A stretch of 64,000 bases of DNA. Source: Streptomyces noursei ATCC 11455. GTDB lineage: Bacteria > Actinomycetota > Actinomycetes > Streptomycetales > Streptomycetaceae. Below are positions 27,056-61,209 of the stretch, piece by piece. The stretch spans positions 8,370,001 through 8,434,000 of the forward strand of contig NZ_CP011533.1 of the NCBI RefSeq assembly GCF_001704275.1. The letters are read 5' to 3'. Below the pieces are notes generated by a model. That model saw nothing but the letters and a program-made list of their open reading frames with translations. It ran no database searches and was not told the DNA's origin. Position 1 is the first letter of the stretch; the number at the start of each line of letters is the position of its first letter. Made by a program: the position numbers and the translations under genes.

Positions 27056-27058
27056 GTC

Positions 27059-31331: not shown

Positions 31332-32646
<1,315 letters not shown>

Positions 32647-32725
32647 GACTGGTTCCTCCCCCCAGGCAGGCCCCTCCGGCCTGCGGTTCCTGCGCCGGCC
32701 GTACGACGTCGCCGCCCCCCGCGCA

Positions 32726-34249: not shown

Positions 34250-34250
34250 G

Positions 34251-34355
34251 GTTTCCTCCCCCCGGGAGGCCCGTGCCCCCCGCACTGTTCCCCCCTCGGG
34301 AGGCCCCCGCCCCCCGCACCGCGCTGTTCCTCTCCTAGGGAGGCCCCCGCCCCCG
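34251..34355. repeat. Three G-rich tandem repeats in the operon leader
   Basis: Three imperfect units of 36, 38 and about 31 bp start at 34251, 34287 and 34325 (plus-strand GTTCC...GGGAGGCCC). On the minus strand each unit holds a Shine-Dalgarno-like AGGAGAGG/GGGGGGAAC sequence. The last one directly serves the GTG of the sugar transferase. Confidence 0.65.
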
Positions 34356-35600: not shown

Positions 35601-35819
35601 ATGGCCAACGTTTTTGACGATGAGTTTGCCCGATTCATCGTTCTGGTCAATGAGGAGCGTCAGTACTCGCTCTGGCCCGCCACCACAGAGGTGCCGGGTG
35701 GATGGCAGGTTGCGCGGCCGGAGGGGTCGCGCCAGGAGTGCCTGGAATTCGTCGAGTCCACCTGGACGGACATGCGACCGGCCAGTCTGGTCGCCGCCAT
35801 GGAGGCTCAGGGCTCCTAG
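35601..35819 (+). CDS. MbtH-like NRPS accessory protein
   Basis: This 72-residue protein has the full MbtH signature, including NEERQYSLWP, PGGW, the Cys-Leu pair (QECLEFV) and WTDMRPASL with the conserved tryptophans. MbtH-like proteins bind the adenylation domains of NRPSs and support their folding and activity. It therefore probably serves several of the six A domains encoded downstream. The ATG at 35601 has AGGGGGAAG about 4 bp upstream, and the longer frame to 35535 is not needed. The gene is 337 bp upstream of the first NRPS and separated from it by a strong hairpin, so the ratio of the two products may be set by partial termination. Confidence 0.95.
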   Translation: MANVFDDEFARFIVLVNEERQYSLWPATTEVPGGWQVARPEGSRQECLEFVESTWTDMRPASLVAAMEAQGS

Positions 35820-36156: not shown

Positions 36157-39100
36157 ATGCAGGAAAACCACGCTCGCCTCCTCCCGCTGACGATGTCTCA
36201 GCAGGGAGTGTGGTACGGGCAGCAGTTGGATCCGCAGAGCCCGAAGTACAACATCGGTGAATGCATAGAAATCCAAGGCCCCCTGGACGAGGCTCTTTTC
36301 ATAGCCTCGCTCGAAAAAGTCGGCAGGGACTGCGACAGCCTCAACACCGAGTTCGTGGAGCAGGGTGACGGAATCCACCAGCGCGTGGTGCGCACCTCAC
36401 CGGGACGTCCATACGCCGTCGACCTCTCCGCCGAGGCGGACCCGGCCGCGGCCGCGGAGCGCTTCATGGCCGCCGACATGGCCGCCACAGGCACCGCAGG
36501 CGCCACAGGCACGTCGGCCTCGGCTTCGCCGCACCATGCCTTCGTTCTTCTCACGCTGGGCCCCGACCGCCACTATTGGTACATCCGCTATCACCACATT
36601 GTGATGGACGGCCTGGGTGCTTCCGTTCTCGCGCGCAAAGTGGCCGAGACGTATACCGCCGCGGTGCGCGGCGAAGCGGGACCGGAATTATTCGCTCCAC
36701 TCAGTGCCCTCATCGACGACGAGACGGCGTATCGACGGTCTCCTGATTTCGAACGTGACCAGGCATATTGGACCGAGAAATTCGCTGATTTCTCCCGGTC
36801 CGGCCGCGACACCGGAAACGCGCTTCTCGCCACCGCGCACAGCGCGGGCGAAGACGCCGCACCGCCGCAGCGCGTTCCTTCGCGACCGGAAAACGGTGGC
36901 GAACAGCATTCTGGGCGCGGCAACCACCTGCACCAGGGGGAGACTCTCGACCCGCAGGTGATGGACGGCCTGCGCGCGCTGGCCGCCGCGACCAGAACCA
37001 CATGGTCCGCCGTCTTCGTGACCGCGGTCGCCGCGTACCTCAGCCGCGTCACCGGCACCGGCGACGTGACGATCGGGCTCGCCTCGAACGGCCGCCCCGG
37101 CCGTCTGCGCGCGATCCCGGGCATGACCGCGAACATCCTCCCGTTGCGCGTGCAGATCACCCCGGCCATGACCGTCGAAGCACTGGTGCGGGCCGTCGCC
37201 GCCGAGATGCGGCTGGCGCTGCGTCACCGCCGCTACTCCAGGGAGCAGCTCGCCCGCGACCTCAGGATCACGGGCGACGCGGCGCGGCTGTGCGATGTGG
37301 TCGTGAACGTCATGCCCTACGAGTACGACCTCGACTTCGCCGGCAGCGCGGGCACCTCAAGGCTGTTGTCCACCGGCCCGGTCGACGACCTCTCCCTCTT
37401 CGTTTCCGAGCGCGCGGAGGGGAAGGGGCCGCTGATCGGCTTCGATGTCAACCCGGACCTGTACCGCCCCGAGGACGTCCGGCCGCACCAGCAGGGCATC
37501 ACGGCGCTGGTCACCGAACTCTCCCGGGCGGACGCGACGTCTCCTCTCTCCCGCCTCGCGATGCTCGACGAGCGGACTGCCGGTCAGGTCCTCGCGACAG
37601 GGCGCGGCAACCCCCTCGGACGGCCGGACCGCGAGCCGGCCCGGCGGGCGTCGCTGCCCGAGCTGTTCGCGGCGCGGGTGGCCGCGGACCCGCGCGCGGT
37701 GGCGGTCTCCGGTGGCGAAGTGGTGCTGTCGTATGGGGAGTTGGCGGAGCTTTCGGGTGTTCTGGCGTCGCGGCTGGTGGGGTGTGGTGTAGCGGTCGAG
37801 GACGGGGTGGGGGTGCTGCTGGGGCGTTCTGCCGCTGTGGTGACGGCGTCGTTGGCGGCGGTGCGGGCGGGTGGCGCGTATGTGCCGCTGGACGTCCGCT
37901 GGCCGTCCGAGCGGTTGCGGCAGACCGCCCACGGAGCCGGTCTGCGCGTGCTGATCGTCGGCGAGGAGTTGGCCGGCCACGCCTGGGTTGCGGAAGCGCG
38001 CGCGAACCTGCCGGTCGTGGTGGTCGATGCCGTGGGGCGCGTGGTCGACGGCGCGCCCGCGGATGTGGCTCTGCCGCCCGCGGTGGTGGGGGGTGGGCAA
38101 CTGGCGTATGTGATGTTCACGTCCGGTTCCACCGGTGTGCCCAAGGGCGTCGGGGTCTCGCATGCGGACGTGGTGGCGCTGGCCGCCGACAGTGCCTGGG
38201 CCGGCGGTGTCGCGGACGCGGTGCTCCTGCACTCCGCCTATGTCTTCGACGCCTCCACCTTCGAGATCTGGGTTCCCCTGCTCAACGGTGGGCGTGTGGT
38301 CGTCGCCCCGGAGGGCGCCCTTGAGCCCCACGTCCTGCGCGACATCGTCACCACGGAGCAGGTCACCGCCCTGTTCCTGACCACCGCCCTGTTCAACGTC
38401 ATCGCCGAAGTCGACCCGCAGGCCCTCGCCGGGGTCCGCGCGGTCTGCACAGGCGGCGAACGCGCCGCGCCCCGCGCCATGCAGCACCTCGCCCGCGCAC
38501 TGCCGGGCACCCGCATCCATCACGTCTACGGGCCGACGGAGACGACCACCTTCGCCACCCGCCATCACGTTGTCGCCGAAACCCCCACCGGCCCGCCGCC
38601 CATCGGCCGCCCCCTCGACGGCATGCGCGCCTACGTCCTCGACTCCGCGCTGGGACTGGTACCGCCCGGAGTCGCAGGTGAGCTGTACCTGGCGGGCCCA
38701 GGCGTCGCCCGCGGCTACCCAGGACGTCCGGGGCTGACCGCAACACGCTTCGTCGCCGACCCCTTCGATCCGTCGGGCGGTCGGATGTACCGCACCGGCG
38801 ACCTCGTCCGATGGGACGCCGACGGCCGGCTGGTCTACCTCTCCCGAACCGACGACCAGGTCAAACTCCGCGGCCACCGCATCGAACCCGGCGAAATCGA
38901 AGGCCTCCTCGCCGGACTGCCCTCGGTGGTCGCCGCCTGCGTCGTGGTACGTGAGGACCTGCCCGGCGACCGGCAACTGGTGGGCTATGTGGTCGCGGCG
39001 GACGGCTCCCCCGTGGACGAGGGCGAACTGTCCGCGGCAGTGGCCCGGGTCCTTCCTTCCTACATGGTCCCCTCGGTCTTCGTGGCTCTCGCGACGCTGC

Positions 39101-42100
39101 CGCTGACGCCGAACGGGAAGGTGGACCGCCGCGCCCTGCCCGCGCCCCGGGTGCCGGAACGCAACTCCGGGCGCGGCCCGCGAACCGTCCGCGAAGAACT
39201 CCTGCTCGCCTTGTTCGCCGATGTCCTCGGCACCGACGGGATCGGCGTGCACGACGACTTCTTCGCGCTCGGGGGGCATTCGCTCCTGGCCACGCGCCTG
39301 GTCAGCCGCGCGCGCTCGGCACTCGACGCCGAACTGGACGTGCGCACGCTCTTCCAACACCCGACCGTCAGCGAACTCGCCACCGCACTGGACACGGCCG
39401 ACCGGGCGCGGGCCGCCCTCGTCCGCGAGGAGCGCCCGCGGGATCTCCCGCTGTCCTTCGCGCAACAGCGCCTGTGGTTCCTGAGCAGGCTCGAAGGGCC
39501 CGGCGCCACCTACAACATCCCGCTGGTGCTGCGGCTCGACGGTTCGCTGGACGTCGATGCGCTGCGTGCCGGGCTCGCCGATGTCGTCGAACGCCACGAG
39601 ACCCTGCGCACCGTCTTCGTCGAGGAGGGCGGAACACCGCGCCAGCAGGTGTGCGACGCGGCGGAAGCGGCCGGCCTGGTACCGCTGCGCTTGGAGGAGG
39701 CGCCGGGCGGCGGAGATCCGGCCGCGATCGAGCGGTGGGCCGACGGAGCGATCCTGTCCGCGGCGACCGAAGCCTTCGACGTGTCGGGGGACCCCGCGGT
39801 GCGGGTGCGGTTGCTGCGGCTGGGTGCCGAGGCGCATGTACTGGTTCTGGTGGTCCATCACATCGCCGCGGACGGTTGGTCGTTGGCTCCGCTGGCCCGG
39901 GATCTGGGCGTCGCCTATCGGGCGCGTGCCGAGGGCAGGGCGCCTGACTGGTCGCCGTTGCCGGTGCAGTACGCCGACTACACCCTGTGGCAGCGACGCA
40001 TGCTGGGTGAGGAGTCGGACGCCGCGAGCCTGACGGCAGGCCAGTTGGAGTTCTGGCGCCAGGCACTGGCCGGTGCGCCCGAAACGCTGGCACTGCCACT
40101 GGACCGACCCCGGCCTGCCGTGTCGCAGCACCGCGGTGACGCCGTTCCCTTCCTCGCCACGGCGGACGCGCATCGGGCGCTCGTCGAGTTGGCGCGGTCG
40201 TGCGGGTGCACGCTGTTCATGGTGGTGCAGGCGGCGGTGTCGGTGTTGTTGTCCCGGCACGGTGCCGGTGACGATGTCCCGCTCGGCACGGCGGTGGCCG
40301 GCCGGAGCGACGAGGCCCTGGACGATCTGGTCGGGTTCTTCGTCAACACACTCGTGCTGCGGACGGATCTGTCCGGAGACCCCACCTTCCGCGAACTGCT
40401 CTGCCGTGTCAGGGAGTTCGACCTCGCCGCCTACGCCCATGGGGACGTGCCGTTCGACCGCGTCGTGGAGGCGTTGAATCCGACACGGTCGCAGAGCCAT
40501 CATCCGCTCTTCCAGGTCATGCTGGTCCTGCAGAACCAGGCCGCCGCCGACCTGGACCTGCCAGGGATCACCGTCACCGGCCAGCCGGTGCACACCGGTG
40601 TCAGCAAGTTCGACCTGACCTTCTCGCTCACCGAGACCCATGATGAGGGCGGCCGCCCGGCGGGGGTGGACGGGTACCTGGAGTACTCCACCGAGCTGTT
40701 CGAGCCCGCCACCGCACAGGCGCTGTCCGACCGACTGTCGCGGCTGCTGACGGAACTGGTCGCCGACCCGGATCAACGGGTCCAGGACATCGAGCTGTTG
40801 GACGCGCCCGAACGCGCCGTCGTGCTCGCGCAGGGGCAGGGCGACGTCCGTCAGGTGCCGGCAACGACGATGTCGCAGCGGTTCGAGGCGCAGGCGGCAC
40901 GCACGCCGGATGCGGTGGCGGTCCGTGACGGTCGGCGCACCCTGACGTACGCCCAGTTGGAGTTGGAGTCCAACGACCTGGCGCATCACTTGTCGGGGCG
41001 TGGGGTCGGCCCGGAGGATCTGGTGGCCCTGGCCGTACCGCAATCGGCCGAGACGGTCGTCGCGATGTTGGCGGTGTTGAAGGCGGGTGCCGCCTATCTG
41101 CCTGTGGACCCGGCGTATCCGGCCGCCCGGATCGCGTATCTGCTGGAGGATGCCCGTCCCAAGCTTCTGATCACGGACAGTGTGGTGCGGGAGCAACTGC
41201 CTTCGACCGACCTGCCGTTGGTCGTGATGGATGATTCCGCGTCCTGGGCTGTGGGGCATGTGTCGGGTCCGGGTGGTGCGGTGTCGGTTGCCGGTCCGGC
41301 GTATGTGATCTACACGTCGGGTTCTACGGGTCGTCCGAAGGGGGTGGTGGTCACCCATGCCTCGGTGGCGTCTCATATGGCGTGGTTGGCCGACCATCTC
41401 GGGTTGACGGTCGAGGATCGGGTGTTGGCGCGTACGTCGCCGAGTTTCGATGCCTCCGTGTGGGAGGTCTGGCTGCCGTTGCTTCATGGTGCGTCGGTGT
41501 GCGTCATGCCGGCCGACGCCAACAGGGATCCCGATGCTCTCGTGGGTTGGATACGCGAGTTCGGTGTGACGGTGGCGCAGTTCGTGCCGTCGCATCTGTC
41601 GTTGGTGTTGGGGAGTGGGGGGCCGGTTCCGGGGTGTTTGCGGGCGGTGTTGTGTGGTGGTGAGCCGTTGGTGGGGGAGTTGGCGGTTCGGGTTGCTGAT
41701 GCGTGGTCGGTGGAGGTTCACAATCTCTATGGGCCGACGGAGGCGACGATCGATGCGACGGTGCATGCGGTGGTGTCGGGTGGTTCGGGTCCGGTGCCCA
41801 TCGGGCGGCCGGTGTGGAATGCGCGGGCGTATGTGTTGGACGGGTCGTTGCGTGTGGTGCCGCCTGGTGTGCCGGGGGAGTTGTATCTGGCGGGTGGGTT
41901 GTTGGCGCGTGGGTATGTGGGTCGTCCGGGTTTGACGGCGTCGCGTTTCGTGGCTGATCCGTTTGGTCCGTCGGGTGGGCGGATGTATCGCACGGGTGAT
42001 GTGGTGCGGTGGGATGCGTTGGGGCGGCTTGAGTATCTGGGGCGGAGCGATGATCAGGTCAAGTTGCGTGGCTATCGCATTGAGTTGGGTGAGGTGGAGA

Positions 42101-45100
42101 GTGCGCTGACGGCGCTGGCGGGTGTGACTGCGGCCCGTGTGCTGATCCGCGAGGACCGACCGGGCGACAAGCGCCTGGTGGCGTACGTCGTTCCCGCGGA
42201 CGGCAGCGCCGTGCACCAGACAGCACTGCGAACCGAACTGGCCGGCACGCTGCCCGACTACATGGTTCCGGCCGCGTTCGTGGTCCTCGACGCGTTGCCG
42301 CTGCTGCCCAACGGCAAGGTCGACCGCCGTGCTCTGCCCGCGCCCGAGGCGCCGGCGGGCGACAGCGAGGGGCGCGCACCGCACACGGTCCAGGAAGAGA
42401 TCCTGTGCGGTCTCTTCGCCGACGTGCTCGGCCGGACGCAGGTCGGCGTCCATGACGGCTTCTTCGAACTGGGCGGGCATTCGCTGCTCGCCACCCGGCT
42501 CGTCAGCCGGGTGCGCTCCGTCCTCGGAGTCGAGCTCGCCGTCCGCACCCTCTTCCAGCACCCCACGCCCGCCGGACTCGCCGCCGCGCTGGACGGAGTG
42601 GGGCGGGCCAGGACGCCGGTGGTGCGGGCCGAGCGGCCCACGACCGTACCGCTGTCCTTCGCCCAGCAACGGCTGTGGTTCCTCAATCGGCTCGACGGAC
42701 CCGGTGCCACCTACAACATCCCGCTTGTACTGGAACTCGCCGGGACGCTCGATGCCCGCGCCCTGAGCTGCGCGCTCGATGACGTGGTCGAGCGGCACGA
42801 GGTGCTGCGCACGGTCTTCCCCGAGCAGGATGGCGTGCCGCGTCAATGCGTACTGGATCCCTCGGCCGTGGACCTGGACCTGTCGGTGCGCGAGATCGAC
42901 CCCGACGCGCTCGACGCGGCCGTGCGCGCCGCGGTGACGACTTCCTTCGACGTGGCGACCGATCTGCCGCTGCGTTGCCGGCTGTTCAGGACCGGCGCCG
43001 AACGCCATGTGCTGGTGCTGGTGCTGCATCACATAGCGGGCGACGGCTGGTCCCTGGCACCGCTGGCCCGCGACCTGGGCGGCGCCTATCGGGCGCGGAT
43101 CGCCGGCAGGGCGCCCGACTGGCCGGCGCCGTCGGTGCAGTATGCCGATTACACCCTCTGGCAGCGGGACATCCTCGGCACGGAGAGCGATCCCGACAGC
43201 GTGGCGTCGCGCCAACTCGCCTTCTGGCGGAACGCGTTGAGCGATCTCCCGGAGCTGTTGGAACTTCCCCTCGCCCAGCCCCGCCCGGCCGTCACGGACC
43301 CTGCCGGCGGAGTCTGCGTCCGCACGCTGGACGCCGCCCTGCACGGCCGGTTGCTCGACCTGGCCAGGTCCTCCGGCAGCACGCTGTTCATGGTGCTGCA
43401 GGCCGCCGTGGCCACGGTGCTCTCCCGGCACGGTGCCGGCGACGACATCCCCCTCGGCACCCCTGTCGCGGGCCGTACCGACGAGGCGCTGGACGACCTG
43501 ATCGGTTTCTTCGTCAACACCCTCGTCCTGCGCACGGACGTGTCGGGCGACCCGACGTTCCGTGAACTCCTCGACAGGGTGAGGGAGTTCGACCTTTCGG
43601 CCTACGCCCATCAGGATGTGCCCTTCGAGTGGTTGGTGGAGAGCCTCAACCCGGTCCGGGCGCGCAACCACCACCCGCTGTTCCAGGCGATGCTGGTGCT
43701 GCAGAACCAGGACACCGCGGACACCGAGTTGCCGGGACTGACGGTCGGCAGCCGACTGGTGCACAACGGGGTGAGCAAGTTCGACCTGACCTTCGCCTTC
43801 GGTGAGGATCGTGCGCAGGGCGGGCTGACGGCCGGCGTCGAGTACGCGACCGCGCTCTTCGACGCCGCCAGCGTCGAGGCCCTGACCGGTCGCCTGGTCC
43901 GGCTGCTGGAGGCCGTCGCCGCCGACCCGGATCGGCCCCTGCACAGCTACGACCTGCTGTCCGAGGACGAACGCGCCGAGGTCGCCGGTTGGGGCGAGGG
44001 CGAGCGCCTTCCGATCGGTACGGCTACGGCGAGCCTGCCCGAGCTGTTCGCGGCGCGGGTGGCCGCGGACCCGCGCGCGGTGGCGGTCTCCGGTGGCGAA
44101 GTGGTGATGTCGTATGGGGAGTTGGCGGAGCTTTCGGGTGTTCTGGCGTCGCGGCTGGTGGGGTGTGGCGTAGCGGTCGAGGACGGGGTGGGGGTGCTGC
44201 TGGGGCGTTCTGCCGCTGTGGTGACGGCGTCGTTGGCGGCGGTGCGGGCGGGTGGCGCGTATGTGCCGCTGGACGTCCGCTGGCCCGTGGAGCGGCTGCG
44301 TCAGGTCGCCGGCGTCAGTGGCATTCGGGTGCTGGTGGTCGGTGAGGAGCTCGCCGGTCACGGGTGGGTCGCCGAGATGCGGCGGCGTCTGCCGGTCGTG
44401 GTGGTCGATGCCGTGGGCCGGGTGGTCGACGGTGCGCCTGCGCCCGCCGCCGCGCTGCCTTCCGTGCGGTCCGGTGACCAACTGGCGTATGTGATGTTCA
44501 CGTCCGGTTCCACCGGTGTGCCCAAGGGCGTCGGGGTCTCGCATGCGGACGTGGCGGCGCTGGCCGCCGACAGTGCCTGGGCCGGCGGTGTCGCGGACGC
44601 GGTGCTCCTGCACTCCGCCTATGTCTTCGACGCCTCCACCTTCGAGATCTGGGTTCCCCTCCTCAACGGCGGACGGGTGGTCGTCGCCCCGGAGGGCGCT
44701 CTCGAACCGCACGTCCTACGCGACATCGTCACCACGGAGCAGGTCACCGCCCTGTTCCTGACCACCGCCCTGTTCAATGTCGTGGCGGAGGTGGACCCGC
44801 AGGCCCTGGCCGGTCTCCGGATGGTCTGCGCGGGCGGCGAGGCGGCCTCGCCCGCCGCGATGCAGCAGGTCGCCGGGTATCTGCCCGGCACGCGGGTCCA
44901 CCACGTCTACGGGCCGACGGAGACCACCACCTTCGCCACCCGCCATCACGTCACCCCCGAAACACCGCTGGGCCCCCCTCCCATCGGACGGGCCCTCGAC
45001 GGCATGCGTGCCCATGTGCTGGATGCGGGCCTGGCACGGGTGGCGCCAGGCGTGACCGGCGAGCTGTACCTCGCCGGACCGGGGGTGGCCCGCGGCTATC

Positions 45101-48100
45101 TGGGCCGCCCGGCCCTGACGGCCACGCGTTTCGTGGCCGATCCGTTCGATCCGTCGGGTGGGCGGATGTACCGTACCGGCGACCTCGTCCGGTGGGACGC
45201 GGACGGCCGACTCGTGTACCTCTCCCGCGCCGACGACCAGGTCAAACTCCGCGGCCACCGCATCGAACCCGGGGAAGTGGAGGGCGTTCTCGCCGGTCTG
45301 CCGGGCGTCGCCACCGCGTACGTGCGGGTCCGGGAGGACCTGCCGGGCGACCGGCGGCTGGTCGGGTATGCGGTGCCCTCCGCCGGTGCGGCGCTGGACC
45401 CCGCGGAGCTGGCGACAGGTGTGGGACAGACACTCCCGGCGTACATGGTTCCCTCCGCGTTCGTCGTGCTGGACGCACTGCCGCTGACGCCGAACGGGAA
45501 GGTCGACCACCGCGCGCTTCCTGCGCCCGAGGCGTCCGGCGGCGGCGGAGGCCGCGGTCCGCGGACGGCCCACGAGGAGATCCTGTGCGGCCTGTTCGCC
45601 GCCGTCCTTGGCCTCGACCGGGTCGGTGTGGCGGACAACTTCTTCGAGGCCGGCGGGCATTCGCTGCTGGCGACGCGACTGGTGAGCCGGGTGCGCTCGG
45701 TCCTGGGCGTCGAGATCGAAGTCCGTGCGCTCTTCGAGCACCCGACAGTCGCCGGACTCGCCGCGGTCCTCGACGCCGCCGACGCGGCACGGCCGTCGGT
45801 GCTGCCCGAACGGCGGCCCGAAGGCATGCCGCTCTCCTTCGCGCAACAGCGCCTGTGGTTCCTGAGCAGGCTCGAAGGGCCGGGCGCCACCTACAACATC
45901 CCGCTGGTGCTGCGGCTCGACGGCCCGCTGGACGTCGAGGCGCTGGGTGCCGCACTGGGCGACCTCGTCGAACGCCACGAGACCCTGCGCACCGTCTACC
46001 CGGTGACCGACGGCGTCGCCCGTCAACTGGTCCTGGACGCGTCCGCGGTCGACCTCGCGCCGCGCCCCCGGGACGTGTCGCCCGCCGAGCTCGACCGGGT
46101 GCTCACGGACACCGTCAGCTTCGCGTTCGACCTGGCAGCGGACGTTCCGGTGCGGGTGCGGTTGCTGCGGTTGGGTGCGGAGGCGCATGTACTGGTGTTG
46201 GTGGTCCATCACATCGCCGCGGATGGTTGGTCGTTGGCTCCGCTGGCCCGGGATCTGGGCGTCGCCTATCGGGCGCGTGCCGAGGGCAGGGCGCCTGACT
46301 GGTCGCCGTTGCCGGTGCAGTACGCCGACTACACCCTGTGGCAGCGACGCATGCTGGGTGAGGAGTCGGACGCCGCGAGCCTGTCGGCACGCCAACTGGA
46401 CTTCTGGCGGCAACAGCTCGCGGGTATACCCGAGTTGGTCGAGCTCCCGTGGGACCGGCCGAGGCCCGCGGTGCTGAAGCACGAGGGCGACGCCCTCACC
46501 TTCGTGATCGACCGGGACACGCACCAGGGGCTGTCCGAGTTGGCGCGGTCGTGCGGGTGCACCCTGTTCATGGTGTTGCAGGCGGCGGTGTCGGTCCTGC
46601 TCTCCCGGCACGGTGCCGGAGACGACGTCCCGCTCGGGACCGCGGTGGCCGGCCGGACCGATGAGGCCCTGGACGACCTGGTCGGGTTCTTCGTCAACAC
46701 GCTCGTACTGCGCACGGACCTGTCCGGCGACCCCGGCTTCCGCGAACTGCTCGACCGGGTGCGGGAGTTCGACCTGGCGGCGTTCGCGCATCAGGACGTG
46801 CCGTTCGAGCGGTTGGTGGAGGCGCTCAACCCGGTGCGGTCGCAGGACCGTCACCCGCTCTTCCAGGTCATGCTGGTGCTGCAGAACCAGGCGGCGGCGG
46901 ACGTCGAACTGCCGGGGATCACGGTGACCGGTCAGCCGGTGCACACCGGTGTCAGCAAGTTCGACCTGACCTTCTCGCTGACCGAGAAGCGGGACGAAGC
47001 GGGTGGTGCCGCGGGCATCGACGGCCACCTGGAGTACTCCACCGAACTGTTCGAGCCCGGCACGGTCCGGGCGCTGGCCGAACGCCTGTCCCGGCTGCTG
47101 GCAGCCGTGGTCGCCGACCCCGACCTGCGCGTGCACGATGTCGAACTGTTCACCGACGAGGAGCGGGCGCGTGTGATCGCCGCAGGTCACGGCCGGCCTC
47201 GGCCGATGCCGCGACTGACCGTGCCGGAGCTCTTCAGCGCGCAGGCGGCACGCACGCCGGATGCGGTGGCGGTCCGTGACGGTCGGCGCACCCTGACGTA
47301 CGCCCAGTTGGAGTTGGAGTCCAACGACCTGGCGCATCACTTGTCGGGGCGTGGGGTCGGCCCGGAGGATCTGGTGGCGCTGGCGCTGCCGGGTACCGCG
47401 GGGATGGTCGTGGCGATGTTGGCGGTGTTGAAGGCGGGTGCCGCCTATCTGCCTGTCGACCCGGCGTATCCGGCCGCCCGGATCAGGTATCTGCTGGAGG
47501 ACGCCCGTCCCGAGTTGCTGATCACCGATCGCGCGGTTCAGGGGCAACTGCCCTCCACCGACCTGCCGTTGGTCGTGATGGATGATTCCGCGTCCTGGGC
47601 TGTGGGGCATGTGTCGGGTCCGGGTGGTGCGGTGTCGGTTGCCGGTCCGGCGTATGTGATCTACACGTCGGGTTCTACGGGTCGTCCGAAGGGGGTGGTG
47701 GTCACCCATGCCTCGGTGGCGTCTCATATGGCGTGGTTGGCCGACCATCTCGGGTTGACGGTCGAGGATCGGGTGTTGGCGCGTACGTCGCCGAGTTTCG
47801 ATGCCTCCGTGTGGGAGGTCTGGCTGCCGTTGCTTCACGGTGCCTCCACCTGTCTGGTGTCACCCGAGACCAATCGCGATCCGGGTCAACTGCTCGACCG
47901 TATGCGGGACTTCGGTGTGACGGTGGCGCAGTTCGTGCCGTCGCATCTGTCGTTGGTGTTGGGGAGTGGGGGGCCGGTTCCGGGGTGTTTGCGGGCGGTG
48001 TTGTGTGGTGGTGAGCCGTTGGTGGGGGAGTTGGCGGTTCGGGTTGCTGATGCGTGGTCGGTGGAGGTTCACAATCTCTATGGGCCGACGGAGGCGACGA

Positions 48101-50499
48101 TCGATGCGACGGTGCATGCGGTGGTGTCGGGTGGTTCGGGTCCGGTGCCCATCGGGCGGCCGGTGTGGAATGCGCGGGCGTATGTGTTGGACGGGTCGTT
48201 GCGTGTGGTGCCGCCTGGTGTGCCGGGGGAGTTGTATCTGGCGGGTGGGTTGTTGGCGCGTGGGTATGTGGGTCGTCCGGGTTTGACGGCTTCGCGTTTC
48301 GTGGCTGATCCGTTTGGTCCGTCGGGTGGGCGGATGTATCGCACGGGTGATGTGGTGCGGTGGGATGCGTTGGGGCGGCTTGAGTATCTGGGGCGGAGCG
48401 ATGATCAGGTCAAGTTGCGTGGCTATCGCATTGAGTTGGGTGAGGTGGAGAGTGCGTTGACGGCGCTGCCGGGTGTGACTGCGGCCCGTGTGCTGATCCG
48501 CGAGGACCGACCGGGCGACAAGCGCCTGGTGGCGTATCCGGTGGTCGCTGCCGGGCGGCGGGTGGACGCCGCCGAGCTGCGCCGGAGCCTTGCGACGGCC
48601 CTGCCCGACTACATGGTTCCGGCCGCGTTCGTGGTCCTCGACGCGTTGCCGCTGCTGCCCAACGGCAAGGTCGACCGGCGCGCCCTGCCCGCCCCCGAAC
48701 CGGACGTGCACCGGGGCGGTGGACTGGCTCCGCGTACCGACGAGGAACGGCTCCTGTGCGGGGTGGTCGCCGAGACGCTCGGCCTCCCGGAGGTCGGGGT
48801 CGACGACGATTTCTTCGCCCTCGGCGGCGACAGCATCCTGTCGATCCAGGTCGTCAGCAGGGCCCGTAACGCGGGACTGGTCATCACGCCGCGCGACGTC
48901 TTCGTCCACCGCACCGTCGAGGCGATCGCGTCGGTTGCCGTGCCGCTGGGCGCGGAGCCGGAGACCGCGGCCACCCCGGGCATCGGCGAGGTGCCGCTCA
49001 CGCCCATCGCCGCGTGGTTCCTCGACCGGCCCGGCACCCTCGACGGCTACAACCAGTCGAGCGTGCTGAGATCACCGGCCGGGGCAACGGAGAAGGACAT
49101 CGCCGCGGCGCTCCAACTGCTCCTGGACCACCACGACATGCTGCGGCTCCGGGTGAGCGCGACGCCCGGCGGGCGGCCCGGGCTCGAAGTCCTGCCGCAG
49201 GGCGCGGTGAGCGCCCGCGCGCGGCTGACGCGGGTCGACATCGCCGGGCTCGACGGCGCACGGACCGATGCGGTGGTCGCCGAGGCGGCCGAGGCCGCCC
49301 GCCTGCGACTGCGGCCCGGCAAGGGTGACGTGCTGGAGGCCGTCTGGTACGACGCGGGGCCCGACCGGCCCGGTCGGCTGCTGCTCGTCGTCCATCACCT
49401 CGCGGTGGACGCGGTCTCGTGGCGCACCCTCACCGCCGACCTGGCCGCTGCCTGGCAGGCGGTCGTCGCCGGCGCGGCGGGCGAAACCTCGCCGCTGCCG
49501 CCGGTGCCCACCTCCTACCGCAGGTGGGCGGAGCTACTGGTGGCCGATGCACGGAGCGCCGAACGCGCCGCGGAACTGCCCCTCTGGCAGGAGATCCTGC
49601 GCACCGAGGACCCGCAGTGGGGATACCGGCCGCTCGACCCGGACCGGGACACCGCCGACGGCGTGCGGACGCTGACGGTCACCCTGCCCGCACAGTGGAC
49701 ACAGCCCCTGCTGACCACCGTGCCGACCGCGTTCCACGCGGGGGTCAACGATGTGCTGCTGACGGGCCTGGCGCTGGCGGTCACCGGATGGCGTGCCGAA
49801 CGCGGGGGCGCGGGCGGGTCGGCCGTCCTGCTCGACCTGGAGGGGCACGGCCGCGAGCAGATCGCGGAGAACATCGACCTGTCCCGGACCGTCGGCTGGT
49901 TCACCAGCATGTACCCGGTGCGGCTCGATCCGGGTCCGGTGAGCCGGTACGAGGCGCGGGCGTTCGACGCCCCGCTCGTCGACCGCGCGCTGAAGCGGGT
50001 CAAGGAACAGCTGCGGGCCGTACCGGACCACGGCATCGGCTACGGCCTGCTGCGTCACCTCAACCCGGGCACCCGCGACGCGCTCGGGGACGCCGTGACG
50101 CCGCAGATCGGCTTCAACTACCTGGGCCGCTATGCCGGTTCATCGGCGGCCGGCGACGCCGGGGACTGGCAGCTGCTCTTCGACGGGGGCGGGCCACGCA
50201 GTCAGGACCCGGACATGCCGGTGCATCACGTGCTGGACATCAACGCCTACACCAAGGACCTGCCGGAGGGGCCGCAGCTGGTCGCCGGCTGGACCTGGCC
50301 GACGGATCTGCTCAAGGAGGAGGACGTCGAGGAACTCGCCGAAGGGTGGCTGCGGGCGCTGCGTGCCGTCGCCGAACACGCCCAGGCACCCGACGCCGGC
50401 GGCTACACGCCTTCCGACCTTCCGTTGGTCTCGCTCAACCAGGCTCAGATCGATCGACTGCAGAACAAGCTGCAGAACAAGTGGGGTGGACGCAAGTGA
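36157..50499 (+). CDS. Four-module nonribosomal peptide synthetase (C-A-T-C-A-T-C-A-T-C-A-T-E)
   Basis: This protein has 4780 residues. Condensation motifs HHxxxDG are at H146, H1234, H2291 and H3351. Carrier serines are S1042, S2109, S3169 (GGHSLLATR) and S4226 (GGDSILSIQ, the form found before epimerases). The epimerase [10 protein letters not shown] is at H4413. Binding-pocket residues read by eye are DAFFCGVTF for A1 and A3 (Val/Ile-type pattern) and DAWQLGLID for A2 and A4 (polar type, perhaps Gln or Ser; unsure). The first C domain resembles EntF-like or starter domains, so residue 1 is probably N-acylated by a partner not in the window. Residue 4 should be D. One TTA codon lies at 36688-36690. 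Modules 1-2 and 3-4 form a tandem duplication. Confidence 0.95.
41207..42185 (+). repeat. Intragenic repeat, copy 1 (A2 domain)
   Basis: Matches 47558-48536 at a constant offset of 6351 bp. Positions 41207-41491 and 41560-42185 are nearly identical to the second copy (about three mismatches seen in the 626-bp part), while 41492-41559 is clearly diverged. The conserved blocks use TTG, CGT and GGT codons far more than the rest of the gene. Confidence 0.85.
47558..48536 (+). repeat. Intragenic repeat, copy 2 (A4 domain)
   Basis: Partner of the repeat at 41207-42185. The 68-bp diverged island lies at 47843-47910. Both copies encode the substrate-binding half of an adenylation domain. Confidence 0.85.
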
Positions 50500-53400
50500 C
50501 CGGGTTCCAGCTGCAGGACGTCCTGCCGTTGACACCGCTGCAGGCAGGCATGCTGTTCCATGCCGTGTACGACTCCGAGGCGGTGGACGTCTACACCGCG
50601 CAGTTCGTCTTCGACATCGAGGGACCGGTCGACGCGGCGCTGCTGTACGCGGCCGTCAAGGGACTGCTGCGCAGGCACGCCAACCTTCGCGTGGGGTTCC
50701 TCCACGAGGACCTCGACGAGCCGGTCCAGGCCGTCGCCGTGGAAGTCCCGCCGGTCTTCGAGGAACTCGACTTCGGCACGGGTGACGACGCCGAGCGCGC
50801 CGAGCGGCTCGCCGCGTTCCTTGCCGACGACCGCACGCGGCGCTTCGACCTCTCCGAACCGCCCCTGATGCGGTTCACCCTGGTCCGGATGGCGCACCAC
50901 CGCTACCACCTGGTCATGACCAACCACCACCTCCTCCTCGACGGCTGGTCGATGCCGCTGCTCGTACGGGAGCTGTTCGAGCTCTATGCGCGCGGCGGGG
51001 ACGGCAGCGCGATGCCGCGCGTCGCCCCCTACCGGGACTACCTTGCCTGGCTGGCCGCGCAGGACCGTACGGCCGCGGCCGGCGCCTGGCGCACGGCGCT
51101 CGCCGGCGTGGCGCAGCCGACCCTGCTGGCCGGGGAGAAGCCGGCCTCCGCGTCGTCGGGCGAGCTGCCCGAGCAGCTGGTGTTGGACCTGGGCGCGGCC
51201 ACCACCGCCCGCCTGCGGGAGACGGCCCGCCGGCACCGCCTGACGCTCAACACGGTGGTGCAGGGCGCCTGGGGCGTTCTGCTGCACCAACTCACCGGGC
51301 AGGACGACGTGTTGTTCGGCACCACCGTCTCGGGACGGCCGCCGGAGATCCCCGGTGTCGACACCATGGTCGGACTGTTCATCAACACGATTCCGGTCCG
51401 CGTCGCCATACGCCCCGACGACACCCTGGCCACGCTGCTGGAGCGGATGCAGGACGAGCAGGGCCGGCTCCTGGGCTGCCAGCACCTCGGGCTGACCGAG
51501 ATCCGCGCGCTGACCGGCCTGGACGACCTCTTCGACACGCTCGCCGTGTTCGAGAACTACCCGATGGACGCGGAGGCGCTGCGGCAGGCCCAGGAGGGCC
51601 TCCCCGGCCTTCGGGTCACCGGCTTCCGCGGCACCGACGCGGCGCACTATCCGCTCACCCTCACCATCGCACCGGGCGATGACCTGCGGATCACCTTCGG
51701 CCATCGCACGGACGCCTTCGACTCCGGCACCGTACGGCTGATGGCGGAGCGGCTGCGACGGCTGCTGGAAACCGGCGCCGATGATCTGGAGCAGCGTGTC
51801 GCCGGCCTCTCGGTGCTGCTCGACGGTGAGCATGCGCGGCTGCTCGACCAGGGGAGGGGCGCCCCCTTACCGGCCGGTGTGCGCCATGCCGGCCTCCCGG
51901 AACTGTTCGCCGCCCGGGTGGTGTCGGACCCGGAAGCGGTGGCGGTCAGGCAGGGCGAAAGCGCCCTGTCCTACGCGGAGTTGGACGGACTCTCCGGTTC
52001 CCTGGCGCGGTGCCTGACGGGCCTGGGCGTGGCCGCCGAGGACGGTGTCGGTGTGCTGGTCGGCCGCTCGGCCGCGGTGGTGACGGCCTCGCTGGCCGCG
52101 GTCCGGGCCGGCGGCGCGTACGTACCGCTGGACGCCCGCTGGCCGGACGGGAGGCTGCGCCGGACATCCGCGGCGGCCGGCCTGCGCGCACTCGTCGTCG
52201 CTGCGGACCTCGCCGGCCACCCCTGGGTGGCGGAGGCCCGCGGCTCTCTCCCGGTCGTGGTGGTGGACACCGACGGGCGGGTCGTGGACGGCGCACCCGT
52301 CGAGCCGGGCACGCTTCCCGACCTGCCCGGCAGCGCGCGGCTGGCGTACGTGATGTTCACCTCCGGCTCCACCGGCGACCCCAAGGCGATCGGTGTCACG
52401 CACGGCGACGTGGCGGCGCTCACCGCCGACGCCATGTGGCGCGGCGCCACCGACGCGGTCCTGATGCACTCCGCCTATGTCTTCGACGCCTCGACCTGCG
52501 AGATCTGGGTCCCGCTGCTCAACGGCGGCACGGTCGTCGTCGCCCCCGACGGGCCACTCGAACCGCATCGCCTCGGCCACATACTGGCGGCCGAGCGGAT
52601 CACCGCTCTCTTCCTGACCACCTCCCTGTTCAACATCGTCGCCGACACCGATCCGCACCTGTTCACGACGGTGCGGCTGGTGGCGACCGGCGGCGAGGTG
52701 GCGGCAGCCGGCGTCCTGCAACGCGCCGCGACCGCCTGCCCCCGGACGTCGTTCGTCAACGCCTACGGGCCGACGGAGGCCACGACGTTCGCGACGCGCT
52801 ACGAGGTGCCGTCGCAACCGATCGCGGACCATCGGGTTCCGCCCATCGGCAAGCCGCTCGACGGTATGCGCTGCCACGTCCTCGACGCCCGGCTGCGACC
52901 GGTGCCTGCGGGCGTGGTGGGTGAGCTCTACCTCGCCGGTCCGGGGGTGGCCCGCGGGTACGTGGGCCGGCCCGACTTGACGGCGACGCGTTTCGTGGCC
53001 GATCCGTTCGATCCGTCGGGTGGGCGGATGTACCGTACCGGCGACCTCGTCCGGTGGGACGCGGACGGCCGGCTCGTCTACCTCTCCCGCGCCGACGACC
53101 AGGTCAAACTCCGCGGTCACCGCATCGAACCCGGCGAGATCGAAACCGCGCTCACCGCCCTGCCGACGGTGACGGCCGCCTGCGTCGTCGTCCGCGAGGA
53201 CGCCCCCGGCGACCGGCGGCTGGTGGCCTATGCCGTGGCGGCGGACGGCGCCACGACAACCCCGGACGCACTGGCGGAGCAACTGGGCCGGACGCTGCCC
53301 GGATACCTGGTCCCCTCGGTGTTCGTCGTGCTGGACGCACTGCCGCTGACCCCGAACGGAAAGCTCGACCGGCGGGCGTTGCCGGCGCCCCGACACACCG

Positions 53401-56400
53401 CGGACACCGGCGGACGCGGCCCGCGCACCGTGCAGGAGGAACTGCTCGCCGACCTGTTCGCCGACGTGCTCGGCACCGGCCGCGTCCCCGTCGACGAGAG
53501 CTTCTTCTCGCTCGGCGGGCACTCCCTGCTGGCCACCCGCCTGGTCAGCCGCATCCGCACCGCACTCGGCGTGGAACTCGAAGTGCGCACGCTCTTCGAG
53601 CACCCCACCGTCGCCCGACTGGCCGCGGCCCTCGACGGTGCGGGCACGGCGCGGGACGCCATCGTGCCCGCGCAGCGCCCGGCGCGACTTCCGCTGTCCT
53701 TCGCACAGCAGCGCCTGTGGTTCCTGGGCAGGCTGGACGGACCCGGCGCCACGTACAACATCCCGCTGGTGCTGCGGCTCGACGGGCCGCTGGACGTGGG
53801 CGCACTGGGTGCCGCCCTGGGCGACGTCATCGAGCGCCACGAGACCCTGCGCACCGTCTTCCCCCAGCACGACGGCGCGCCCGAGCAGGTGGTCCTCGGC
53901 CCGGCTCAGGCGCAGCTCGCGCTGACCGTCGACGATGTCGAGGAGTCCGACCTGCCCGACCGGATCTCCGCCGCGGTGACCGAGCCGATCGACGTGGAGG
54001 CCCAGGCACCGCTGCGGGTGAGCCTGCTGCGGCTGGGCGCGGAGAGCCATGTAGTGGTCCTGACGTTGCATCACATCGCTGGCGACGGCTGGTCGTTGGC
54101 GCCGTTGGCCCGGGACCTGGGCGCCGCCTATCGGGCGCGTGCAGAGGGCAGGGCGCCTGACTGGTCGCCGTTGCCGGTGCAGTACGCCGACTACACGCTG
54201 TGGCAGCGCCGCATGCTGGGTGAGGAGTCGGACGCCGAGAGCCTGTCGGCACGTCAACTGGCCTTCTGGCGCCGGGCCCTGGCCGATGCGCCGGAGGCGC
54301 TGGTCCTGCCCTGGGACCGGCCGCGGCCCGCACTGCTCAAGCACGAGGGCGACGCGCTCACCTTCGTGATCGACCAGGACACGCACCGCGGGCTCGTCGA
54401 GTTGGCGCGGTCGTCGGGATGCACCCTGTTCATGGTGGTGCAGGCGGCGGTGTCGATGCTGTTGTCCCGGCACGGTGCCGGTGACGACATCCCGCTCGGC
54501 ACCGCGGTGGCCGGCCGGAGCGATGAGGCGCTGGACGACCTGGTCGGGTTCTTCGTCAACACGCTCGTACTGCGCACTGACCTGTCGGGTGATCCCACCT
54601 TCCGTGAACTCCTCGACCGGGTGCGGGAGTTCGACCTGGCGGCGTTCGCGCATCAGGACGTGCCGTTCGAGCGATTGGTGGAGTCGCTCAACCCGGTGCG
54701 GTCGCAGGACCGTCACCCGCTCTTCCAGGTGATGCTGGTGCTGCAGAACCAGGCGGCGGCGGACGTCGAACTGCCTGGTGTCACGGTGACCGGCCAGCCG
54801 GTGCACACCGGCGTCAGCAAGTTCGACCTGAGCTTCAGTTTCACCGAGCGGCGGGACGAGGCGGGTGGTGCCGCCGGCATCGACGGCCACGTGGACTACT
54901 CCACCGAACTGTTCGAGCCCGGGACGGTGCACCGGCTCGCCCACCGACTGCGCTGCCTGCTGTCCGCGGTCGTGGCCGACGCCGACCTGCCTGTCCGCAG
55001 CTACGACCTGCTCACCACCGAGGAGCGGTCGCGGATGCTGGAGGAGTGGGGACGCGGCCCCGTCGGATACCTGCCGACCCCGACGGTGCCGGAACTCTTC
55101 GGGGAGTGGGTGACGCGTACCCCCGAAGCCCGGGCCGTACGCGACGCGACGGGTGCCTTGACCTACGCGCAGCTCAACGCCCGGGCCAACGACCTCGCCC
55201 GGCACCTGTCGGGACAGGGCATCGGCCCCGAGGACCTGGTGGCCCTCGCCCTGCCCCGGTCGGCCGACCTCATCGTCGCGATACTGGCGGTACTGAAAAC
55301 AGGAGCGGCCTACCTGCCGGTCGACCCCGCATACCCGCCCGCCCGCATCTCCTTCATGCTCGACGATGCCGCGCCGGCCTTCCTCATCACCACCACCGCT
55401 CTCCGCGCAGGACTGCCCACCACCGCCCGCTGCCTGGCCCTCGACGACACCGCGGTCTGGTCCACCGGCCACACCGCCGACCCGCGCACCGTCCCCCTGC
55501 CCACCCACCCCGCCTACGTCATCTACACCTCCGGCTCCACCGGCCGGCCCAAGGGCGTCGTGGTCACTCACCAGGGCGTCGGCGCGATGGTCCGCACACA
55601 GGCGGAAAGGCTCGGCCTCACCCCCGCCAGCCGGGTCCTGCAGATGGCGTCGGTCAGCTTCGACGCGGCGTTCTGGGACATCTGCATGGGACTGCTGACC
55701 GGTGCCTGCCTGGAGGTCGCGGACCCGGCGCAGCTGGTGCCGGGGCCCCCGCTCGCCGGCCTGCTCGCGGAACGCGGCATCACCCACCTGACCCTCCCGC
55801 CGGCCGCCCTCGCGGTCATGCCGCAGGACGACGGCATACCCGGCGGTACCACCCTGGTGCTCGCCGGGGAGGCGTGCCCACCGGCGCTGGTCGCCCGGTG
55901 GGCCGACGGCCGGCGGTTGGCCAACGCCTACGGGCCGACCGAGACCACGGTCTGCGCGACGATGAGCGACTTCCAGGAGGCGGCCGGCCAGGAGGCGCCG
56001 GCCCACCGGGTACCGATCGGGGTCCCGGTGCGCAACGCACAGGTGTATGTGCTCGACGCGGCAATGGAGTTGGTGCCGCCCGGGGTGATCGGAGAGCTGT
56101 ATGTGGCCGGCGACGGACTGGCCCGCGGCTACCTGAACCGTCCGGGCCTGACCGCCACCCGGTTCGTCGCCGATCCGTTCAGCCACACCGGCGGACGCAT
56201 GTACCGCACCGGCGACCTCGTCCGCTGGAACGACCGCGGCGAGCTCGAATACGTCTCCCGCGCCGACGACCAGGTCAAGCTACGGGGCTTCCGCATCGAA
56301 CTCGGGGAAATCGAGGCGGCGTTGGCCGCGGTGCCCGACATCACCGCCGCCTGCGCCGTCGTCCGGGAGGACCGGCCCGGCGACCGGCGGCTGGTGGCCT

Positions 56401-58082
56401 ACGCCGTTCCCGCCGACGGGCAGGGGGAGGAGGCGACCGCCCGGATGCGCCGGGCACTCGTCGCGCAGCTGCCCGACTACATGGTGCCGTCCGCGTTCGT
56501 CGTGCTCGACGCCCTGCCCCTCACCCCGAACGGGAAGATCGACCGCCGGGGACTGCCCGCCCCCGGCCCCTCCACGAGCACAGGCGCCGGACGCGCCCCG
56601 GACACCGAACAGGAGAAGCTGCTGTGCGCGGTGTTCGCCGATGTCCTCGGTGTCCCTGAAGTGGGTCTCGACGACGACTTCTTCGAGGCGGGCGGACACT
56701 CCCTGCTCGCGGTCAAGCTGGCCCAGCGCATCGAGGACAGGTTCGGCGTACGGCCGTCGATGCGTGCCCTCTTCGCCGCGCCCACCCCCGACGGTGTGCG
56801 GCGCCTCCTGGACGAGCCGGCCGGCGGCTCCGGCCACGCGCCCGGCCCCGATCCGCGCCAGGACGTGCACCTGGCGCCCGACATCACCCCGGCGCTCGGG
56901 CCCGCGTCCGGCGAACCCGCGAGCCCGCGCCGCCCGTTGCTGACCGGCGCCTCGGGCTTCCTCGGAGCGTTCCTCCTGCGTGATCTGCTGGAATCGACGG
57001 GCGGCCCGGTGGACTGCCTGGTGCGGGCCGGCGACACCGCCGAGGGAGCGCGCAGGTTGCGGTCCGGCCTGGAGCGGTACGGGTTGTGGAAGGAGCACTA
57101 CGGCGACCTGATCCGGCCGCTGCCGGGCGACCTGGGCGCGCCGGGCCTGGGCCTGTCCGACGCGGAGCACAAGGCACTGTGCAAGCGGGTCGGCGCTGTG
57201 TACCACAACGGCGCCACGGTCAACTTCGCCGCCCCGTACGCCGAACTCCGCGCTGCCAACGTCACGGGCACCGAGGAACTCCTCCGCATCGCCGCCGCCT
57301 CGGGGTCGACCGGCATGCACTACGTCTCCACCACCGGCGTGTACCCACCGCACACGTCCGCCCCCGGCCCCCTCACGGAAGCCTCCGCCATCGGCCCCGT
57401 GCACGAGCTGCCCGACGGCTACTCGCAGAGCAAGTGGGTCGCCGAGGAGATCGTGGGTATCGCGCAGAGCCGCGGAATCCCGGTGGCCATCTATCGCCCC
57501 GCGCGTATCTCGGGCGCCTCGCGCACGGGCGCCTGCCAGGACCGCGACCTGCTGTGGCAGTACATCAAGGGATGCCTCCAGGCACAGGCGGTACCCGAGG
57601 GATCCGACGAGTCGACCGACTGGATACCGGTCGACTACGTGAGCGCCGCAGTCGTGGCCCTGGCCAACAACCAGCAGGCGCCACAGAACCCACCGCAGAA
57701 CATGGCCGGTCCGGCACGGACAACCTTCCATCTCACCCACCCCGCACCGCCCATGCTCTCGCACGTGTTCCGGGCAGCGGCCGCCCTGGGCTACAGGGTG
57801 CAGCCGGTGCCACTCGACCACTGGCGCAAATTGGTGGCCGACCAGCCGGACAATGCCGCCCAGCTCTTCCTCGGCGGGGTCGACCGGCAGGAGACCGCCG
57901 AGGAAGCCGACGGCCGGCCCCGCCGCCGGCGTCGCACCTTGGACTCCTCCCTCACCCACCGAGCGGCGGCGGCATCGGGAGTCCACCTCCCGCCCTTCAC
58001 CGACGAGACCGTACGGGCCTACCTGACGTACTTCGCCGGCACGGGATTCCTCCCCACGCCCACCCTCGACCCCAACCGCTGA
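50496..58082 (+). CDS. Two-module NRPS with terminal thioester reductase (C-A-T-C-A-T-R)
   Basis: This 2528-residue protein starts at a GTG that overlaps the previous stop (GTGA). The first condensation domain ([21 protein letters not shown] at H144) has the D-L type opening expected after an epimerase. A5 (D664) gives DACFAGATF, a code I do not recognise. T5 is at S1010. The second C domain has H1192. A6 (D1723) gives DAWTVAAVC, a well-known Phe code. T6 is at S2069. From about residue 2145 a reductase domain follows, with GASGFLG, the Y2309/K2313 pair (YSQSK) and no thioesterase. It should release the peptide from T6 by NADPH reduction to an aldehyde or alcohol. One TTA codon lies at 51867-51869. 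Confidence 0.95.
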
Positions 58083-58707: not shown

Positions 58708-59076
58708 GGGCTGGAGGATTTCACGGTGACACCTGCCCGGTCCAATGTCGCGGGGACACGGTGCGGACCCATCGGCCAGGCCCTGGGGCTTGCCCGGCCG
58801 GTCACGTGCGGAGCCACATCATCAGGGTTGCTGCGGTGGCGGCCGTTGAACGGCGGTGAATGGTTCGGCAGTGCGGAAAAGCGTGCGGAAAGAGTTCCGT
58901 GAGGGTGCACTGGTGCCCTGGGGCTGTCGAGCTTGGCTTGGAACAGGTGGAATCTCCACCCCGCAGGCCCGATCCTTCCCTGAGCCGAGCCTTCGAGCCT
59001 TCGAGCCATTGAGCTTTCGAGTCTCCGAACGACGGTTGTGCGTTCGCGTATCCGGGCAAGGCGGAATGGGGCTGGT
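58708..59076. other. Intergenic stretch with short tandem repeats
   Basis: About 370 bp with no supportable gene. Near 58984-59025 an 8-bp unit recurs (CTTCGAGC, CTTCGAGC, CATTGAGC, TTTCGAGT). A GGAGG followed by a GTG around 58714-58726 starts only a short frame without known motifs. Confidence 0.4.
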
Positions 59077-61112: not shown

Positions 61113-61177
61113 CCGCTGCCGCCCGAACGTGCGACTTCCCGGCCGCGACGAACAGTCGCGAACGTACCGCCGGGGCC

Positions 61178-61201
61178 GGTGCTGGGGCTTCACCCAACAC
61201 C
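61178..61201. terminator. Hairpin between convergent genes
   Basis: GGTGCTGGG (61178-61186) pairs with CCCAACACC (61193-61201) with one mismatch and a 6-nt loop. It lies between the FolC-like gene and the LLM oxidoreductase gene that faces it. Confidence 0.45.
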
Positions 61202-61209
61202 AGGCAGTT

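Follow-up and report, generated by a model that had tools for sequence, protein, structure and literature searches.

A predicted flavopeptin-type peptide aldehyde synthetase of Streptomyces noursei with homogenized modules and skewed repeats that may take their polarity from replication

A stretch of 64,000 nucleotides from Streptomyces noursei ATCC 11455 (contig NZ_CP011533.1, positions 8,370,001 to 8,434,000 of the forward strand; hereafter the window) carries an mbtH-like gene and two nonribosomal peptide synthetase (NRPS) genes. We hold, with good confidence, that these genes are best explained as a flavopeptin-type NRPS making an acyl-X-Gln-X-D-Gln-Z-phenylalaninal, and the assembly line is real and probably works. 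More surprising than the product is the coupling of homogenized modules with genetic repeats of intense nucleotide skews (GRINS) that are oriented with replication. By a narrow preference, we propose that the replication fork, not the gene, fixes the polarity of GRINS, with a G/T-rich leading strand wherever an assembly-line gene carries them, that GRINS originate in a replication-coupled process, and that this process also copies modules onto each other, while module 5, lying outside it, has changed its code. The three genes and their condensation (C), adenylation (A), epimerization (E) and reductase (R) domains are as follows; T denotes the carrier domains and ORF an open reading frame.

35601..35819, plus strand: mbtH-like gene, helper of the A domains, 72 aa (PF03621, 81 bits)
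36157..50499, plus strand: NRPS 1 (ORF1), 4780 aa, four C-A-T modules and E
36181..37551, plus strand: C1, starter-type condensation domain, predicted acylating (nearest solved chains; identity to other C/E domains)
37654..39126, plus strand: A1, code DAFFCGVTF, Ile/Val-like (code reading; boundaries approximate)
39445..40776, plus strand: C2, LCL-like group (Pfam; C/E identity comparison)
40882..42336, plus strand: A2, code DAWQLGLID, Gln (code reading)
42643..43980, plus strand: C3, LCL-like group (Pfam; C/E identity comparison)
44041..45519, plus strand: A3, code DAFFCGVTF (code reading)
45826..47160, plus strand: C4, LCL-like group (C/E identity comparison)
47233..48687, plus strand: A4, code DAWQLGLID, Gln (code reading)
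49012..50376, plus strand: E, epimerase for residue 4 (TIGR01720, 147 bits)
50496..58082, plus strand: NRPS 2 (ORF2), 2528 aa, two C-A-T modules and R
50523..51845, plus strand: C5, DCL-like, after E (20–33% identical to other C/E domains)
51900..53384, plus strand: A5, code DACFAGATF (code reading)
53688..55037, plus strand: C6, LCL-like group (Pfam; C/E identity comparison)
55104..56555, plus strand: A6, code DAWTVAAVC, Phe (code reading)
56937..58052, plus strand: R, thioester reductase (PF07993, 206 bits; TIGR01746, 291 bits)

An initial annotation, made from the letters alone, had proposed this order of four modules with an epimerase and two modules with a reductase, and its coordinates, frames and domain order were borne out by Pfam and TIGR01720. 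NRPS 1 matches five Condensation, four AMP-binding and four PP-binding stretches, and NRPS 2 two of each together with NAD_binding_4. The GTG start of NRPS 2 at 50496 lies within the stop of NRPS 1, giving a four-base overlap, and a gap of 337 nt separates the mbtH gene from NRPS 1. Each NRPS gene contains one TTA codon (36688 and 51867), at which bldA might exert control. In NRPS 1, the fifth Condensation stretch is the epimerase: its TIGR01720 score lies well over the cut-off of 74, it carries the FNYLGR motif, it is 20–30% identical to every C domain, and the carrier domain ahead of it has GGDSI. The domains C1 (22–27% identical to the others), C5 and E each share 20–33% identity with all other C/E domains, whereas C2, C3, C4 and C6 are 65–80% identical among themselves, which is the pattern expected of a starter C, a DCL, an E and LCL domains. 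Among solved structures, C1 is nearer to starter C domains than to LCL or DCL domains, its closest relatives being 7c1k (236 bits), which we take to be the starter C domain of the rhizomide synthetase, and CDA synthetase I (4jn3, 190 bits).

The R domain scores above the TIGR01746 cut-off (213), and the GASGFLG and YxxxK motifs noted previously are present, the latter as YSQSK, so that NRPS 2 has both the nucleotide motif and the Thr/Ser-Tyr-Lys residues of R-terminated NRPSs. The Thr, Tyr and Lys are identical in the window and in 119 homologues. One of the 120 homologues (P0114) was dropped from this alignment as its glycine motif was not matched by the pattern; conservation of the glycines is therefore by selection, whereas Thr, Tyr and Lys were not selected in this way. 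The nearest solved chain is 8v1x, followed by MxaA (4u7w).

The codes of the A domains repeat as the initial annotation had stated, with A1 and A3 both DAFFCGVTF and A2 and A4 both DAWQLGLID, and the code of A6, DAWTVAAVC, was read as it had been given there. Position 299 was taken from the anchored reading, since MAFFT shifted five codes at this position by a one-residue gap. The A2/A4 code denotes Gln and the A6 code Phe in the code tables. Literature searches matched DAWTVAAVC once and returned no match for DAFFAGVTF, DAFFCGVTF, DACFAGATF or DAWQLGLID. In the available excerpts of PMC9866976, DAWTVAAVC is printed as L-Phe and DAFFLGVTYK, near the A1/A3 code, as L-Ile, both being predictions.

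On these grounds we predict acyl-[Ile/Val]-Gln-[Ile/Val]-D-Gln-Z-Phe-H as the product. MbtH would support the A domains, while C1 would take an acyl group, probably short or branched and with acyl-CoA as the donor, and cap residue 1. Modules 1–4 would add an Ile/Val-type residue, Gln, an Ile/Val-type residue and Gln; E would convert residue 4 to D-Gln, and C5 would accept the D-ended chain. Module 5, with its changed code, would add an aliphatic or larger residue and module 6 Phe, whose thioester R would reduce with NAD(P)H, freeing the peptide aldehyde. The released aldehyde could act as a reversible covalent inhibitor of cysteine or serine proteases or of proteasomes. The substrate of each module, the acyl cap, the two-electron product and the target are thus predictions; given the codes and the solved starter C domains nearest to C1, we favour an N-acyl hexapeptide phenylalaninal as the product.

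The synthetase belongs to a widespread family. At E <= 1e-60, the R domain matches 114 of 392 Streptomyces genomes, among which a discrete R clade, including S. pratensis, comprises 24 genomes (its own included) at 61–100% identity; the next matches reach at most 48%. Besides its own genome the clade has 23 members, of which we compared 19 (all but G191, G147, G116 and G082). The loci of S. albospinus (L010) and S. noursei A-2-1 (L009) are partial. The mbtH gene before the NRPS genes, C1, E, C5 and R were matched in all 19, and six A domains with the same code order, up to single positions, in 18, so the layout of mbtH, four modules with E and two modules with R recurs through the clade. In one relative (G070) the first gene is spread over two frames. 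Another (G158, L079/L080) has a starter C, A, C, A(Gln) and E followed by C, A, C, A(Phe) and R; it resembles a four-module version of the pattern X-D-Gln-X-Phe and probably makes a tetrapeptide aldehyde, as far as its domains tell.

The same order is found among database proteins. Out of the best 120 of 443 NRPS 1 homologues, 113 had four readable A domains and seven fell outside; 105 of the 113 fit X-Gln-X-Gln, seven have an unreadable or odd letter, and one (P0235) differs. Among the 113, A3 reads DAFFCGVTF in 110, A2 DAWQLGL[IV][DE] in 108 and A4 DAWQ[LA]GL[IV]D in 112. A6 is DAWTxAAVC in 119 of 120 NRPS 2 homologues (the best 120 of 1248). The X-Gln-X-Gln order is therefore common through a Streptomyces/Kitasatospora clade and not isolated. 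Sequence tests supported the acyl cap, the D residue at position 4, Phe at position 6 and the reductive release that had been claimed for this cluster, but not the novelty implied for the residue pattern, as the same code order runs through this clade, S. pratensis included. The mbtH gene, the long DNA repeats, the strong skews and the wider family had been overlooked.

S. pratensis appears in both homologue lists (P0048, P0076 and P0221), and NRPS 2 is 63–64% identical to two of its proteins. Identity to a characterised cluster thus stays below the 80% at which the initial annotation would have been given up, the flavopeptin genes lying outside the comparison. Strain ATCC 33331 appears under the name S. 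pratensis; it was presumably known before as S. flavogriseus, and we take it to be closely related to the strain that makes flavopeptin. The flavopeptin synthetase itself is said to be that of Streptomyces sp. NRRL F-6652, reportedly described by Chen et al. in 2013. Our system resembles it as a Streptomyces NRPS ending in R and, by prediction, making a peptide aldehyde, and the gene sizes and code order are similar to those of the S. pratensis clade proteins through which the likeness is drawn. The codes of A2–A4 equal those of P0221, and A1 differs at one position; P0048 has the same A6 code and a different A5 code. Besides the identity of 63–64%, the window differs from S. pratensis and the clade in its module-5 code and in the homogenized A1/A3 and A2/A4 pairs. 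New with respect to the clade is the change in module 5, while the code order has precedent.

Several points weigh against the assignment as a flavopeptin-type phenylalaninal synthetase. The label relies on the presumed link through S. pratensis and on reviews available in excerpts, rather than on the flavopeptin genes themselves. The codes were read with our own anchored scripts instead of a trained predictor, and single code positions differ in relatives, e.g., in A4 of G274/G369 and A6 of G335/G232. To our knowledge, there is no described compound from this S. noursei cluster. Among the literature matches listed, none paired Streptomyces with a lipopeptide aldehyde or with phenylalaninal, and none paired S. 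noursei with an aldehyde or an NRPS. When the flanks were compared all against all (over some 5 kb on the upstream side and some 8 kb on the downstream side), only mbtH was seen to be conserved beside the NRPS genes, so that an acyl ligase, an exporter and a regulator could not be assigned. The limits of this comparison excluded the stretch before the starter C domain of G158, where its mbtH gene was later found. To these points may be added the rank of MxaA as the second-nearest solved R domain and the statement, in excerpts of PMC8949500, that R-domain aldehydes generally pass on to the alcohol; both would suit an R domain that reduces by four electrons and yields an N-acyl hexapeptide alcohol ending in phenylalaninol. 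We regard the alcohol as unlikely, for the R region groups in one clade with the S. pratensis proteins (56–57% identity and 475–483 bits, compared with 238 bits for MxaA in another database), and flavopeptins are reported in the available excerpts as NRPS-made Streptomyces aldehydes with inhibitory action on the 20S proteasome (PMC8009326) and as products remaining aldehydes (PMC8949500). R domains are also known to supply aldehydes that react with a free N-terminal amine and so give cyclic imines, aureusimine and the nostocyclopeptides being examples (PMC8949500, in excerpts); a starter-type C domain opens the present synthetase, hence no free amine is expected, and such an intermediate role of the aldehyde is very improbable.

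The phenylalaninal synthetase of S. noursei departs from its relatives at module 5, where the code is DACFAGATF instead of the DAFFAGVTF of most of the clade. Cys239 of A5 occurs in three (P0003–P0005) of the 115 NRPS 2 homologues with two readable codes; one of these (P0003) is 99% identical, has no stated source and may represent the window's own protein. The loci of S. noursei A-2-1 and of S. albospinus have Cys239 as well, and the R region of the window is 93% identical to that of the S. noursei match. Among the sequences compared, the residue appears to be limited to the S. noursei group. The smaller side chain at 239, together with Ala or Gly at 322, probably widens the A5 pocket.

Two pairs of modules of the window have become alike. 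A2 and A4 are 91.7% and A1 and A3 84.0% identical to each other, whereas the closest orthologues among 18 relatives share 64% and 65% identity with them; in 17 of the 18 relatives the reverse holds, with orthologues nearer than the A2/A4 pair, G023 being the exception. At the DNA level, exact repeats of 380, 281, 165 and 140 nt are shared by A2 and A4, of 159 nt by C2 and C4, and of 116 and 105 nt by A1 and A3. The A2/A4 tree, a quick tree in which the A2 domain of G023 has a long branch and odd composition, places the window A2 beside the window A4 and within the A4 part, as though A2 had been replaced by a copy of A4. High A2/A4 identity (91–93%) is confined to four members of the lineage (the window, P0123, P0125 and P0126), the other 110 reaching at most 67%. 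As P0125 and P0126 have A2 and A4 domains closer to each other (91.3%) than to the window A2 (86–88%), homogenization continued after their split. The likeness of A1 and A3 is high outside the lineage too, at the protein level (P0140, 93%; P0235, 79%). That these pairs with identical codes are simply old duplicates, with no recent gene conversion, would accord with the X-Gln-X-Gln layout of the whole family, by which the duplications are old. We give that account almost no weight in view of the reversed identities just described, the rejection of a tree forcing all A2 domains together (p-AU 6e-6) and the values for P0125 and P0126. The A2/A4 and A1/A3 pairs appear instead to have been kept alike by gene conversion in the window lineage.

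The repeated parts are strongly skewed, with a GC skew of up to +0.47 and a TA skew of up to +0.52 on the coding strand. GRINS were reportedly described in assembly-line polyketide synthases (PKSs) by Nivina et al. in 2021. We took the GRINS thresholds from the available excerpts of PMC9899208 (for duplication, at least 500 bp that are >80% identical to a second region within one assembly line) in a version of our own, which works without gaps and uses running means for the skew rule. By this version, 6360 nt of the window genes lie in duplicated regions, and two segments are also sufficiently skewed.

41137..42156, plus strand: GRINS-like segment in A2, GC skew +0.35, TA skew +0.47; A2 copies of the 380, 281 and 165 nt repeats
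47827..48606, plus strand: GRINS-like segment in A4, GC skew +0.38, TA skew +0.45; A4 copies of the 380 and 165 nt repeats

Parts of A1 and A3 (37657–38256 and 43957–44556) are skewed as well and did not pass the rule as applied. G023 has eight GRINS-like segments, of opposite skew to those of the window, and it is the only other one of the 19 homologous synthetases with homogenized A domains (A1, A3 and A5, 86–93%). In the remaining 17, we found neither a duplicated 500 nt stretch nor a GRINS-like segment, so that only the two synthetases with GRINS are homogenized. A PKS region of G000 (9262–9342k, L133–L136) has about 21.7 kb of duplicated DNA and no GRINS-like segment; duplication is thus insufficient for GRINS. 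Cytosine deamination alone was rejected as the cause of the skew, because third positions of the A2 core gain G as well as T (window versus mean of 17 relatives: C 0.19/0.60, G 0.57/0.33, T 0.23/0.03). According to excerpts of PMC10394414, GRINS occur in PKSs as well as in PKS-NRPS hybrids, and excerpts of PMC9205934 mention skew patterns for one pure NRPS family. Those wollamide and desotamide NRPS genes share skew patterns, and concerted evolution is discussed for them, as here; they represent another product class, with no R domain mentioned in the excerpts. The segments of the window resemble PKS GRINS in size (about 0.5–1 kb), identity (>80–90%) and GC/TA skew (>0.15–0.25), and differ in lying in the A domains of pure NRPS genes and in a polarity tied to replication, which goes unmentioned in the available parts of PMC10394414 and PMC9899208.

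The window lies to the right of dnaA (8.43 versus 4.82 of 9.82 Mb) and the G023 synthetase to the left (0.38 versus 3.90 of 7.90 Mb); the synthetase genes of both are on the plus strand. Their opposite skews on opposite sides of dnaA suggested a G/T-rich leading strand. We compared 51 PKS/NRPS stretches (the window, L077–L114 and L119–L170): the 19 synthetases, nine stretches of G000 and G023, 12 of G360, G253 and G049, and 11 of G031, G225, G226, G207 and G159, the direction of replication being inferred from dnaA on linear contigs. GRINS occur in 21 of them (2 + 3 + 9 + 7, in the order of these groups), with 108 segments (10 + 16 + 61 + 21). All 108 have a G/T-rich plus strand to the right of dnaA and a C/A-rich one to the left; the background skew of the last 11 stretches is at most about 0.1 either way.

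The stretches were picked by hand from ketosynthase (KS) and C matches, partly for being head-on to replication and not by skew; several come from one genome and some from one cluster, and are thus not independent. The 30 stretches without GRINS, head-on ones among them, are uninformative and were kept in the denominators. We dropped G350 (dnaA at 2.35 of about 11 Mb) as well as G118 and G290 (dnaA near a contig end); G007, G193, G009, G015 and G246 gave no KS match at the threshold, and some KS stretches were left out, e.g., long PKS regions of G360, G253, G207, G159 and G225. At 9215–9235k of G360, three segments were assigned by script to a minus frame while the KS matches are on plus, and the stretch was counted as co-directional; at 9375–9415k of G360, genes run both ways and two segments lie in plus frames. 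The 90–110k stretch of G226 has mixed gene directions and no GRINS.

A skew that follows the coding strand, and hence transcription, with an incidental match to replication would explain the 16 of 21 GRINS stretches that are co-directional as far as resolved, where both readings agree. It has very little probability in our view given the five head-on stretches: the G023 synthetase, G360 8460–8495k, G360 884–904k, G031 7810–7862k and G225 8335–8370k. Their 34 segments, from four genomes, all follow replication and not transcription, with a C/A-rich coding strand, the opposite of the co-directional ones. If the replication fork fixes the polarity, as we are inclined to think, the replication-coupled process would keep the two Gln-specific and the two aliphatic A domains alike. 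We found no statement on the replication polarity of GRINS in the excerpts or among the literature matches listed; the primary GRINS paper may contain one.

As for the neighbouring genes, the minus strand at 25121–34285 is exopolysaccharide-like, with an asparagine-synthase-like protein, a UDP-glucose dehydrogenase and a sugar transferase by Pfam and glycosyltransferase-like frames judged by eye. Downstream, 59038–62959 holds a MobA-like transferase, a Mur-ligase-like protein, a luciferase-like protein (minus strand) and a 265 aa FAD-binding frame that matches the later part of the profile only and is perhaps a remnant. The exopolysaccharide-like and MobA/Mur-ligase-like genes were excluded from the cluster, since only mbtH stood out in the flanks. 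A duplicated proteasome subunit for self-resistance was likewise rejected: two adjacent PF00227 matches lie 1.1 Mb off, and there are none at the cluster. In one relative (G155, L090), NRPS 2 is followed after about 2.4 kb by another mbtH-like gene, which lies on the minus strand and is 54% identical to that of the window.

The cluster thus belongs to a widespread family, compact at three genes, whose predicted products are acyl-X-Gln-X-D-Gln-Z-phenylalaninals; flavopeptin is the sole product name known to us for it. In the S. noursei branch the pocket for the P2 residue beside the warhead has changed, and this residue generally tunes protease selectivity. The 19 synthetases amount to a natural experiment in which GRINS and homogenization occur together, twice, with mirror-image skews. 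If the proposed coupling is true, the orientation of a cluster relative to oriC would decide how its modules mutate, and the replication-polarity rule would make the still unexplained origin of GRINS directly testable.

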